Source: Gilliamella sp. wkB108 (GTDB lineage Bacteria; Pseudomonadota; Gammaproteobacteria; Enterobacterales; Orbaceae). From it: a stretch of DNA of 64,000 nucleotides. The stretch spans positions 1 to 64,000 of the forward strand of contig NZ_LZGM01000021.1 of the NCBI RefSeq assembly GCF_001690195.1, written 5' to 3'. Numbering within the stretch: the first letter of the stretch is position 1; each line of letters begins with the position of its first letter. A program made the translations under genes and the position numbers. This document shows, in pieces, positions 6,094-10,332 of the stretch. A model generated the notes under the pieces. The model was not told the origin of the DNA and searched no databases. It worked only from the letters and a program-made list of their open reading frames with translations.

Positions 6094-7179
6094 TTAATTT
6101 ATATAATGGATCTTTGCGCGAGTTGTTAAGCGCGTTAATAATTCATAAGCACTAATGCCTGTGAGTGTTGCTATTTCTTCAACAGGTAAACCTTTTCCCC
6201 AAAAAATGACTTCATCTCCGGGTTTATCCTGACTCTCATTACCTAAATCAATCACTATCATATCCATTGAAACACGCCCAACAATAGGAACGCGTCGTCC
6301 ATTTATTAAAACCGGTGTATTTTCAGGAATACTTCGAGGATATCCATCACCATACCCAAGCGCAACCACACCTAACTTTGTATCTTGGCTACTGGTCCAA
6401 ATTTGCCCATAACCAACTGTTTCGCCTTGTTTATGTGGACGAACAGTGATTAGCTCTGATTTAAATGTCATTGCAGGTTGTAATTCTGCAACTGGAGTTT
6501 GAAATGGAGATACACCATATAAGGCTATGCCAGGACGAACGGCATCACGATGAGACATCGGCCATGCTAAAACACCACCCGATGCAGCAATAGAACATTT
6601 ACCAATCAATGATTTATTTTGAATTGATGCAATAAAATCATCAAACAATTTTATTTGTTGTAATGTTTGTTGTGATGTTAATTCATCTGCTGAACTAAAA
6701 TGACTAATGATATTAATCGGTTTGCGAACCACAGGACAATTTGCTAAACGGTTAAATTCACTTAGCGCTTCATCCATATTAAAGCCTAAACGATGCATCC
6801 CTGTATCAAGTTTAAACCAAACAGTAATTAGACTTTCGCCGGCAAAATCTCTTAATAGATCGATTTGCCATGGACTGTGAACAATTGTCTGTAAATTAAA
6901 ATCAATTAAAAACCAAATGTTATCTCGCAGGAAAAAACCTTCTAATATCACAATTGGCTTATTGATCCCTATTCTACGTAAACTCATCGCCTCGGTAAGA
7001 CGTGCAACACCAAAACCATCAACTCGATCATGTATTAATTCAGCTATACCTTTAATACCATGAGAATAGGCATTTGCTTTGACAATGGCGATGAGTTCAC
7101 TATCGGGTACAATTTCCTTTAAATACTCAACATTATGTAGAATAGCTTTGCGATCAATTTCAACTACAGCAATAGACAT
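6094..7179 (-). CDS. alr: Alanine racemase
   Basis: A 361-residue fold-type III PLP enzyme that interconverts L- and D-alanine for peptidoglycan. The PLP lysine is K34 in IVKANAYSHG. The second catalytic residue is Tyr257 in ETVGYGQIW. The RPGIALYG, GYGDGYPR and GRVSMDM blocks are all present, and the length is normal for Alr/DadX. It is transcribed leftward and followed almost at once by mltG. No dadA lies nearby, so the biosynthetic alr is a better name than dadX. The long AT-rich region to its right holds the degenerate CRISPR-like array. Confidence 0.94.
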   Translation of the reverse strand: MSIAVVEIDRKAILHNVEYLKEIVPDSELIAIVKANAYSHGIKGIAELIHDRVDGFGVARLTEAMSLRRIGINKPIVILEGFFLRDNIWFLIDFNLQTIVHSPWQIDLLRDFAGESLITVWFKLDTGMHRLGFNMDEALSEFNRLANCPVVRKPINIISHFSSADELTSQQTLQQIKLFDDFIASIQNKSLIGKCSIAASGGVLAWPMSHRDAVRPGIALYGVSPFQTPVAELQPAMTFKSELITVRPHKQGETVGYGQIWTSSQDTKLGVVALGYGDGYPRSIPENTPVLINGRRVPIVGRVSMDMIVIDLGNESQDKPGDEVIFWGKGLPVEEIATLTGISAYELLTRLTTRAKIHYIN

Positions 7180-7348
7180 CTTGTTAAACCTAACTCTTTT
7201 TATATCAGGTACATATTGTAAGTTCTGTTAATTATAATCACAAATAAAAAATAACCAATTTTTTAATTTTTATCCCGATAACGACATGAAATCCAACTAT
7301 ACCAAGCAAAAACGATATCTGAATAATATTGAAATTTTTTTCTTAAAA

Positions 7349-7671
7349 GAATTATACCGCTTATATAGCGGTATAACCCTAAATTTTATATCTAGATTTA
7401 TCAATTTTGTTTCTTAACCACCTATACGGCAGTGAAGTTGCTAACGCAAATTGGTAATACTAGCTTTCTAAACCACTTATACAGCGGTGAAAAGTACATA
7501 AAGATATCTAAAAAAACAATAAAATTTCTAAACCACTTACACAGCGGTAAATATGTTAATTCAGCCATTTTAAATTTTAATATTTTCTAAACCGCTTCCA
7601 CAGCGGTGAATATCATTTATTAAATGTTCGAATTTTTAAGTGATTTCTAATTCACATATACAAAAGTGAAT
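7349..7671 (-). CRISPR. Degenerate type I-F-like CRISPR array, no cas genes
   Basis: Six 28-bp repeat copies start at 7349, 7410, 7465, 7525, 7584 and 7644, giving steps of 61, 55, 60, 59 and 60 bases. That is a 28-bp repeat plus about 32-bp unique spacer. Read on the minus strand, copies begin TTCACYGC and end GGTTTAGAAA or close to it, with a short internal palindrome. The copy at 7410 reads TTCACTGCCGTATAGG on the minus strand, close to the classic subtype I-F repeat. The first (7349) and last (7644) copies are the most diverged, and all copies differ from each other. The spacers are AT-rich and differ from one another. No cas gene is in the window. The rest of the 7180-7950 gap shows nothing else convincing apart from a terminator near ppsA. 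Confidence 0.68.
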
Positions 7672-7861
7672 TAGAAACATCAATAATATAAACCTTGTTT
7701 CAAAAAAAACAAACATAGATTTTAATTAAAAATCCTCTCGTTGATATACAACATGCTGTCAATTATGATCAATCACATCATCAAACTAGTGTAAGAACCG
7801 CTAAAATAAGGCAATGATAAAACTGAAAAATTTCTCATAATAAGCACAGCAACAGAATTCC

Positions 7862-7950: not shown

Positions 7951-10332
7951 TCAAGTATTGGATGAATCAGCTAAATATAGCCATGTATCAATTACAGTAT
8001 CAGGATTAAGTGATAAACTATCAATACCTTGATTTAGCAACCATTTAGCAAAATCAGGATGATCAGAGGGACCTTGTCCACAAATCCCGATATATTTATT
8101 ATGTTTTTTACATGCTGTTATCGCCATAGATAACATTGCTTTTACTGCTGGATTACGTTCATCAAAGGTCGCAGCAATTGGGCCACCACTATCACGATCG
8201 GTACCTAATGTAAGTTGGGTCATATCATTTGATCCAATAGAAAAACCATCAAAATAGACCAAAAAATCCTCAGCTAAAACGGCATTTGCAGGGATCTCAC
8301 ACATCATAATTAAACGCAAACCCTCTTTACCGCGTTCTAGTCCATTAGCAGTTAAAATTTCATTAACTTGTTTGGCTTCATTAACAGTACGTACAAATGG
8401 GATCATAATTTCCAAATTTTTTAACCCAAGTTGATTCCGTACCATTTTTATCGCCTCACATTCTAACTCAAAGCATGGTTTAAAAAAGGTTGAAACATAT
8501 CTGGCTGCACCTCTAAAACCGAGCATAGGGTTTTCTTCATGTGGTTCATAACGTGTACCGGCAATCAGATTGGAGTATTCATTAGATTTAAAATCAGACG
8601 TTCTTAATATGACGCGTTTTGGATAAAAAGCACCCGCAATCATCGCAATACCTTCTGCTAATTTTTGAATATAAAAATCACGCGGTGACGCATAACCAGA
8701 AATACGTTCACTTATAATTTGCTGAAGATCGCTTGGTAATGAATCAAATTCTAATAAAGCTTTAGGATGAATACCGATCTGTTTATTAATAATAAATTCC
8801 ATTCTGGCCAGTCCCACCCCATGATTAGGTAGTTGACTAAAACTAAAGGCTAACTCTGGATTACCCACATTCATGTAAATTTTTAAAGGAATATCAGGCA
8901 TAGCACCAAGATCTACCTGAGATTTTTCAATATTTAAAAGACCTTTATAGATAAAACCTGTATCACCTTCGCAGCATGAAGCAGTGATCGGCTCGCCTTC
9001 TGTAATCATTTTGGTTGCATTACCACATCCCACAATCGCCGGGATCCCTAATTCACGAGCAATAATCGCTGCGTGACAAGTTCGACCGCCTCGATTCGTT
9101 ATAATTGCAGAGGCTTTTTTCATGATCGGTTCCCAATCAGGATCAGTCATATCGGTGACTAATACATCCCCTGACTGAATTTTGTCCATATCGCGGATAT
9201 CATGAATAATTTTGGCACTGCCCTGACCTATTTTCTGTCCTATAGCTCGTCCTTGACAAATAATGTCTGATTTACCTTTGATATGGTAACTAGTAAGACT
9301 TGTTTTCGATTCTCTGGATTTAACGGTTTCCGGTCTGGCTTGTAAAATATAAAGTTTACCATCCTCGCCATCTTTACCCCACTCTATATCCATAGGCCGT
9401 CCATAATGCTCTTCAATGATTATCGCATAACGAGCAAGCTGTAAAACATCCTCATCAGTGATTGAAAACTGACCTCGTAGTTGCTCATCAACTTCAACTG
9501 TCCTAACGGATTTATTTGCTGAAGCGATATCGGTAAATTCCATTTTAATTAATTTGGAACCTAAACCTCGATGTAAAATACACGGGTAACCTTGGGTTAA
9601 TAATTGTTTATGGACATAAAATTCATCGGGATTAACAGCTCCTTGTACCACTGTTTCACCTAAACCATAAGCTGACGTAATAAATACTACTTTATCAAAG
9701 CCTGACTCGGTGTCCATCGTAAACATAACGCCTGCAGCGCCAATGTCACTACGAACCATTTTTTGAACCCCGACTGAAAGCGCAACTTGTGAGTGATCAT
9801 AATTTTGGTGTTTACGATAAGAAATTGCCCGATCATTATACAGAGAAGCAAATACATGTTTGATTGCTTCCTTGACATTTTCAATACCATGAATGTTTAA
9901 AAACGTCTCTTGCTGACCAGCAAAAGATGCATCAGGTAAATCTTCGGCTGTAGCAGAAGAACGCACCGCAACGGAAAAATTATCGCCATAATCTGTTAAC
10001 ATCGTTTGCCAAGCTTGATTAATTGCTTGTTCAAATTCAGGTGTAAAGTCAGTTTGTAAAATCCAAGTACGGATCTGTTCACCAGCTTTAGTTAATTGAT
10101 TAATATCATTAATGTCAACTGAATTAAGAAGCATTGTAATACGTTGATCTAATCCCCCTTGCGCTAAAAAAGCGCGGTATGCAGCAGCGGTTGTTGCAAA
10201 GCCATTGGGAACTTGTACACCTTTGGCATAGAGTTGACTTATCATTTCGCCTAATGAAGAGTTTTTGCCTCCCACACTTTCAACATCATCCTTGCGTAAC
10301 TCGTTAAACCAAATTACGTTCTGCATAACCAT
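7951..10332 (-). CDS. ppsA: Phosphoenolpyruvate synthase
   Basis: A 793-residue enzyme (E. coli 792) that makes PEP from pyruvate and ATP, giving AMP and phosphate. The N-terminal nucleotide-binding domain has VGGKNSSLGEM near 20-30 and SVAVRSSATAEDLPDASFAGQQE near 120-142. The phosphohistidine domain has GGRTCHAAIIARELG with the swivelling His420. The C-terminal TIM barrel carries GSNDMTQLTLG and the catalytic CGQGPSD. It is transcribed away from ppsR, its regulator. Two Met codons lie at the start (residues 1 and 3); the first, preceded by GGAG, is used here. The enzyme supplies PEP for gluconeogenesis and for the PTS encoded at 20.8-22.9 kb. Confidence 0.96.
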   Translation of the reverse strand: MVMQNVIWFNELRKDDVESVGGKNSSLGEMISQLYAKGVQVPNGFATTAAAYRAFLAQGGLDQRITMLLNSVDINDINQLTKAGEQIRTWILQTDFTPEFEQAINQAWQTMLTDYGDNFSVAVRSSATAEDLPDASFAGQQETFLNIHGIENVKEAIKHVFASLYNDRAISYRKHQNYDHSQVALSVGVQKMVRSDIGAAGVMFTMDTESGFDKVVFITSAYGLGETVVQGAVNPDEFYVHKQLLTQGYPCILHRGLGSKLIKMEFTDIASANKSVRTVEVDEQLRGQFSITDEDVLQLARYAIIIEEHYGRPMDIEWGKDGEDGKLYILQARPETVKSRESKTSLTSYHIKGKSDIICQGRAIGQKIGQGSAKIIHDIRDMDKIQSGDVLVTDMTDPDWEPIMKKASAIITNRGGRTCHAAIIARELGIPAIVGCGNATKMITEGEPITASCCEGDTGFIYKGLLNIEKSQVDLGAMPDIPLKIYMNVGNPELAFSFSQLPNHGVGLARMEFIINKQIGIHPKALLEFDSLPSDLQQIISERISGYASPRDFYIQKLAEGIAMIAGAFYPKRVILRTSDFKSNEYSNLIAGTRYEPHEENPMLGFRGAARYVSTFFKPCFELECEAIKMVRNQLGLKNLEIMIPFVRTVNEAKQVNEILTANGLERGKEGLRLIMMCEIPANAVLAEDFLVYFDGFSIGSNDMTQLTLGTDRDSGGPIAATFDERNPAVKAMLSMAITACKKHNKYIGICGQGPSDHPDFAKWLLNQGIDSLSLNPDTVIDTWLYLADSSNT

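Follow-up and report, generated by a model that had tools for sequence, protein, structure and literature searches.

Among the described systems, the orphan type I-F1 arrays of Gilliamella are close to the locus considered here. The array of genome G028 (contig C3, at ~98–100 kb), for instance, shares with it the repeat type, the pitch of ~60 bases, and the leader sequence, and its repeat is likewise placed after ..TTCTA. It is composed of 12 identical repeats and one with 2 differences, whereas the repeats described below differ among themselves and their spacers have drifted. A further point of reference is given by the CreTA modules. According to the portion of PMC10097628 that covers it, the I-F CreTA of Acinetobacter is located in the gap between cas3 and csy1 and uses CC as PAM. 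Degenerate CreTA repeats are described in part of PMC9458426 as stable and still able to work, and the relevant lines of PMC12737573 report that crRNAs compete with known CreR for Cas proteins.

The window, i.e., the whole analyzed stretch of 64,000 nucleotides from Gilliamella sp. wkB108, a bacterium of the bee-gut type, carries six I-F-type units at 7349–7671 with pitches of 61, 55, 60, 59, and 60 bases, as the preliminary description had stated. Five copies (7410, 7465, 7525, 7584, and 7644; pitch 55, 60, 59, and 60) were found in register by the repeat search and match the reference copy at 67–90%. The sixth came out as a separate pair (7344–7373 with 7520–7549) and falls at 7349–7376 once the stems are in register; therefore, the earlier 61-base step is correct. 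A 27-base pattern of the four inner copies, with up to three mismatches, has four matches in the 3.08-Mb assembly, all in the window array, and the same pattern read backwards, used as the control, has none. The Rfam model RF01317 (CRISPR-DR4, model positions 1–28), which we take to be the I-F/Ypest repeat cluster, matches four of the six units on the minus strand (E 0.00099, 0.0017, 0.0025, and 0.032), all four under the gathering score of 35 bits. On this strand, the inner units read 5′-TTYAC, a hairpin, and TTWAGAAA-3′. The minus-strand fold (−89.3 kcal/mol, z −5.1, 0 of 100 shuffles as low) contains the hairpins of the repeats, and the plus-strand fold is shallower (−64.9 kcal/mol, z −3.7, 1 of 100 shuffles as low). 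The 28-nt repeats with a short hairpin, the spacers of about 32 nt (32, 31, 32, 27, and 33 nt), and the ~60-base pitch are those of type I-F. This subtype, previously proposed from resemblance, is supported by CRISPR-DR4 on four of the six units, by the I-F pitch, and by a leader like those of live Gilliamella arrays. The window array is a genuine, leader-bearing orphan type I-F array whose reading strand is the minus strand. Its parts are listed in reading order.

7672..7731, minus strand: leader; last 34 bases compared with 17 live leaders, 10–26 identical positions
7644..7677, no strand assigned: inverted repeat with perfect 12-bp arms, spanning R1 and the leader end (sequence; fold; minus-strand self match)
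7644..7671, minus strand: repeat R1, leader-proximal, stem core lost (repeat search; 9 differences to the nearest of five live repeats)
7612..7643, minus strand: spacer S1, 32 nt
7584..7611, minus strand: repeat R2 (repeat search; pattern match; RF01317 E 0.00099)
7553..7583, minus strand: spacer S2, 31 nt
7525..7552, minus strand: repeat R3 (repeat search; pattern match; RF01317 E 0.032)
7493..7524, minus strand: spacer S3, 32 nt
7465..7492, minus strand: repeat R4 (repeat search; pattern match; RF01317 E 0.0017)
7438..7464, minus strand: spacer S4, 27 nt
7410..7437, minus strand: repeat R5 (repeat search; pattern match; RF01317 E 0.0025)
7377..7409, minus strand: spacer S5, 33 nt if R6 is placed by its stem (32 nt, 7378–7409, if R6 lies one base higher)
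7349..7376, minus strand: repeat R6, terminal, hairpin (sequence; minus-strand fold)

Over its last 34 bases, the leader shares 20–26 positions (best 26) with 10 of the 17 live arrays of the genus, 16–19 with six, and 10 with one array that is one base out of register. The match has P ≤ 0.012 for 15 of the 17, 0.033 for one, and 0.56 for the out-of-register one. Since it lies directly before the unit at 7644, this unit is the first repeat, and the sequence at 7672–7731 stands beside it as the leader of an I-F array does. By eye, the leader holds a −35-like TTGTTT (7712–7707) and a −10-like TATATT (7690–7685), 16 apart, as in the G028 leader. At the other end, R6 forms a hairpin with perfect 10-bp arms (7352–7376), followed on the minus strand by TTCTTTT, which is terminator-like by eye. 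Neither the leader promoter nor the terminal R6 hairpin was reported by a consensus promoter and terminator scan, a result that counts against the explanation preferred below. R1, for its part, now belongs to a hairpin with perfect 12-bp arms (7644–7677).

In live arrays the repeats are near-identical; here they differ among themselves, and the array is therefore a relic and not a live one. Each of the four inner repeats has 3 to 4 differences to the nearest of the five live repeats compared, and R1 has 9. Two of the four inner units come closest, among these five repeat types, to that of G028, a genome that also has the best-scoring alr. All six stem pairs form in five of the six units, some of them as G–U and one via a change on both sides; the unpaired stem cells (4 of 36) are, by sequence, all in R1. 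Stem-pair covariation over the six repeats is not significant (88.9% of the cells pair, a value equaled or exceeded in 176 of 500 shuffles), and with a pair count that does not exceed the shuffles, the result speaks of stem retention and is no proof of selection. In a simple neutral simulation of the four inner repeats (five pairs, author-chosen rates), the inner stems all stayed paired with a probability of 0.002 or 0.03, according to the ancestor assumed.

The spacers have a mean GC of 0.21, whereas 263 distinct live I-F spacers of relatives average 0.38 (sd 0.10; P ~4e-5 for five at random). The pooled GC of S1–S5 (0.208) is also below that of the intergenic DNA of the window (0.274), where 4.9% of 154-nt stretches are as low. 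As the spacers are thus AT-richer than most of this DNA, simple drift to background is an incomplete account. Two or three of the five spacers differ from 32 nt, the length of 257 of the 263 live spacers; the latter were collected at pitches of 57–63 only, so that very odd live spacers would be missed. Both GC and lengths are most simply accounted for by AT-biased drift combined with small indels. Had the spacers instead been captured from highly AT-rich DNA, their GC would be explained and their lengths would not. The decay already suspected from repeat divergence is thus borne out by the low spacer GC, the drifted spacer lengths, and the lost stem of R1. Going by the worn R1 and the drifted spacers, we infer that the growth of the array ended long ago and that the last acquisition lies correspondingly far back.

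The array is flanked by genes that we take to be alr (6094–7179) and ppsA (7951–10332). The surrounding translations look like housekeeping genes, and inspection of the flanking ones by eye gave no mobile-element gene. In 29 other alr neighborhoods (up to 1.5 kb on either side; five more genomes of the genus, which lack the locus, were left out), the array is absent, with no I-F-like unit at 19 or more of 27 positions; an array shared with relatives at the same site finds no support in them. A ppsA at E ≤ 1e-100 occurs in only 2 of 35 genus genomes. The ppsA of the window is 92% identical to that of G010, and alr is 79% identical. On sequence comparison, ppsA may have moved horizontally. The repeat pattern itself occurs in 25 of the 35 genomes, mostly as regular arrays among the matches listed. 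The preliminary description had named units dispersed without the ~60-base spacing, or forming part of a mobile element, as evidence against a CRISPR array; neither was seen, and among the matches listed for the relatives, most form regular arrays of ~60-base pitch.

Matching of the spacers to phage and plasmid DNA, which had been proposed earlier as a check, gave no target for S1–S5 in the viral_contigs collection, in phages, or in plasmids. Patterns of S1–S5 and of guide A (one of two guides near the csy operon, described below) had 0 matches in viral_contigs, with most sixth bases left free and three of the six patterns shortened at the 3′ end. Seven phage records at E 0.3 and three plasmid records at E 0.09 were attributed to chance. 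A BLAST search with the array in its own genome gave, apart from the self match and the inverted repeat of the array (E 0.02), 37 matches, all with E of at least 0.14 and none of them a target. When 164 kb of the same genome were scanned for CC plus seed, S1–S5 and the guides A and B were all within the range of 20 shuffles, and the best place of guide B was its own locus. Since no spacer target was found, an invader origin of S1–S5 stays a presumption, which is likewise counted against the preferred explanation.

The array had been described as lacking cas genes. This holds for its surroundings and fails genome-wide, as csy1, csy2, csy3, and cas6f, full length by Pfam and PADLOC, are present on another contig, C24 (L078:11744–15698, minus strand). 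Csy1 and Csy2 are separate proteins of 471 and 307 aa. The accompanying idea of an array served by cas genes elsewhere is right as regards Csy1, Csy2, Csy3, and Cas6f; I-F Cas1 and Cas2-3 were not found, genome-wide searches of the assembly giving none over the cut-off. The assembly is a draft of 129 contigs with a listed completeness of 99.99%. No array was found by a scan of the csy stretch on C24. Matches to Cas1, to Cas6f, and of Cas2-3-like type fall on contigs other than that of the array. One of these contigs, C31, has a Cas1 gene together with 19 regularly spaced copies of a different repeat; from its gene layout, this locus is presumably of type I-E.

Among 35 genus genomes, Cas6f was found in 21, Cas2-3 over the cut-off in 21, and I-F Cas1 over the cut-off in 20. 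The window genome is the only one of the 35 with Cas6f and without I-F Cas2-3. A search for Csy3, from which 80 loci were kept, gave 11 without cas2-3 in the fetched flank. Four of these (L176, L189, L203, and L233) were traced to their genomes, all of which have I-F cas2-3; L174 lies on the G026 contig, where cas2-3 is ~400 kb away, and the remaining six are cut by contig ends. I-F repeats without a Cas6f match occur in G009, G020, G030, and G034 (4 of the 25 genomes with the repeat pattern).

Several neighboring cases were noted in passing. G030 (67% complete) shows the reverse situation, I-F Cas2-3 without Cas6f. G022 has Cas6f and Cas2-3 and no I-F Cas1; at G022:C79 (L106), the match of its cas2-3 begins at profile position 108. 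On G026:C1 (L111, L112), I-F cas1 and cas2-3 lie ~400 kb from csy1-csy2-csy3-cas6f on one contig. The csy1 of L100 (G015) aligns as two pieces in different frames and may be broken. A full I-F locus is present at L171 (Frischella japonica); Frischella is stated to be without CRISPR systems in a honey-bee study, in the passage of PMC12586679 concerned.

In the joint csy tree, the terminal branch of the window genome (G000) is the third-longest of 21 (0.285), and in the alr tree the sixth of 18 (0.162). Its mean identity to the other genomes is the 2nd to 4th lowest of 21 across the four csy proteins. Its share of changes at otherwise invariant sites amounts to 0.12–0.18 in the csy proteins, within the range of seven other genomes, and to 0.04 in alr. 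These comparisons give no clear sign of relaxed selection on the csy genes, whose frames are open.

Between cas2-3 and csy1, relatives often carry a pair of degenerate repeats round a guide whose start recurs slightly further on behind CC. Tested against 500 shuffled guides, one guide reaches p ≤ 0.004 at 16 of the 20 csy loci of relatives. L109 (p 0.28) and L099 (p 0.17 and 0.96) do not conform, and at L096 and L112 no repeat passed the filter; of the 25 relative guides tested, the other nine have p of at least 0.166. By eye, mismatches of the csy1-upstream guides (L092–L110; own element L146:24–218) often fall at guide positions 6 or 12.

In the window genome, C24 ends 161 bases past (upstream of) the start codon of a small gene that precedes csy1, and its last 24 bases, on which the join rests, are shared with the start of contig C57. 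There, at L146:24–218, lies an element of three repeats and two guides, A and B. Guide B has a CC with an 11-nt run close ahead of a promoter-like TTGACT (p 0.004 when 500 shuffled guides are scanned over this region), and guide A has no such match before the csy operon; over 164 kb of the genome, 20 shuffled guides also reach an 11-nt run. Degenerate repeats round a guide with a PAM and a partial match before the operon are thus found at the csy locus of this genome. Judging from sequence, the operon is preceded by a CreR/CreA-like self-directed guide and may be repressed through it. Further along C57, the place where relatives carry cas1 and cas2-3 is taken by a tandem repeat with a 108-bp unit in 3.9 copies (L146:341–759). 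No cas genes were seen by eye beyond the element in the first 7 kb of C57.

The small gene, of ~107 codons, lies between guide and csy1 at 13 of the 20 relative csy loci (own copy L078:15737–16060, minus strand) and at 11 of the 80 Csy3-search loci, all from Gilliamella or Frischella. The model of one member has a mean pLDDT of 71, with ~88–93 at residues 51–100, and predicts that the C-terminal half folds as a winged helix resembling MerR-type domains; the best Foldseek match has E 0.018, and no match reaches 0.001. The protein has no Pfam match over the cut-off (weak DUF6824, E 0.006) and none in PADLOC. A weak NCBIfam match to threonine ammonia-lyase in one of nine members was taken as chance.

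Taken together, the locus is probably a frozen relic I-F array in a genome that keeps an intact Csy surveillance operon, including the small gene with the predicted winged helix, together with a CreR/CreA-like guide and has lost I-F cas1 and cas2-3. This explanation joins what is observed, namely the array, its leader, csy1-4, an assembly without I-F cas1 and cas2-3, and the guide–PAM match. The array would be read on the minus strand from the leader at 7672–7731 and closed by the hairpin at 7349–7376; acquisition of spacers would have stopped long ago, with drift since. If it is transcribed, Cas6f could cut the four inner repeats, the stems of which still pair, and the products could be loaded onto Csy complexes. 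Without Cas1–Cas2/3, the array should be unable to grow, and without Cas2/3, loaded complexes would bind DNA and not degrade it. If crRNAs are made, they and the CreR-like guide would be competitors for the Csy complexes. The array itself is probably not what keeps the csy operon in place; its retention would rather reflect the self-directed guide, addiction, or a recent loss.

Alternatively, the array could be the working guide set of a nuclease-free I-F regulator, whose Csy complexes would repress chromosomal or mobile DNA without cutting it. The intact csy1-4 without cas2-3, the retained leader, and the stems of the four inner repeats and R6, which all pair (0.002 or 0.03 in the neutral simulation of the inner four), are consistent with such a role, and degenerate repeats can work in CreTA modules, as part of PMC9458426 describes. 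However, S1–S5 have no CC-plus-seed target beyond control level in 164 kb of the genome, the own-genome BLAST gave no target (other matches at E of at least 0.14), the spacers appear drifted in length and GC, and the stem covariation is not significant; on balance, a guide set in use is unlikely. The same degree of doubt applies to the wider proposal of a nuclease-free I-F1 system as an RNA-guided DNA-binding regulator, in which Csy1–3 and Cas6f would stand under CreR-like self-repression and the window array would supply fixed processed guides for binding without cutting. The array might also act as a competitor, its crRNAs titrating the Csy complex from the CreR-like guide and so setting the csy operon level regardless of what S1–S5 match. 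Here the guide with CC and an 11-nt run before the operon would provide the counterpart, and a competition between crRNAs and CreR for Cas proteins is described in part of PMC12737573. Nevertheless, the array need not be transcribed, and the spacer drift is compatible with titration and does not support it, so that we give this possibility a low probability.

The same low standing is accorded to a whole system in the strain, with I-F cas1 and cas2-3 missing from the draft. The 129 contigs leave room for such a gap, and C24, which carries csy1-4, stops just short of the expected site of these genes; yet C24 overlaps C57 by 24 nt, and on C57 the expected CreR-like element is followed by genes of other kinds. 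The listed completeness of 99.99% and the genome-wide searches, which found no I-F cas1 or cas2-3, point the same way, and even with the genes present, the worn first repeat argues against live use. Service by type I-E genes of the same genome is very improbable: the Cas1-bearing C31 locus with its regular 19-copy array (presumably type I-E) could supply them, but its repeats are unlike those of the window, for which matching Cas6f and Csy proteins are present. A chance pattern or another repeat family, to which single units under the Rfam gathering score might point, is hardly credible in view of four Rfam matches at I-F pitch, unique in the genome, and a leader common to live arrays; leader and repeats together already refute a non-CRISPR reading.

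Considered by itself, this is a worn-out orphan array of an ordinary kind. The part worth following is the nuclease-free, self-directed Csy operon in the same genome. No such genome is described in the top-ranked titles and abstract openings of the literature on Gilliamella CRISPR, on I-F systems without cas3, on CreR, and on orphan arrays. In CreTA modules, the effector represses a toxin, and csy1-4 kept without cas1 and cas2-3 are therefore what an addiction model predicts, even if one genome is no proof. The genome lets one ask whether Cascade is kept for binding alone, in regulation or addiction, after immunity has gone.

Several known systems share traits with this genome. Its csy locus is like the CreTA/CreR modules, with degenerate repeats round a guide that has CC and a close partial match, while the window array differs from them in being longer, leader-bearing, and far from the csy locus, with no self target found. 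The I-F3 CRISPR-associated transposons share a Csy-type effector without Cas1 and Cas2-3. Their Cas8f–Cas5f fusion is not seen here, where Csy1 and Csy2 are separate, and no transposition genes were seen by eye beside the csy operon. From standard I-F1, the genome differs by the absence of cas1 and cas2-3. As with orphan arrays that lack matching cas genes, no cas gene stands beside the window array; unlike in those cases, the genome, with nuclease and adaptation genes not kept, retains the effector and processing genes.
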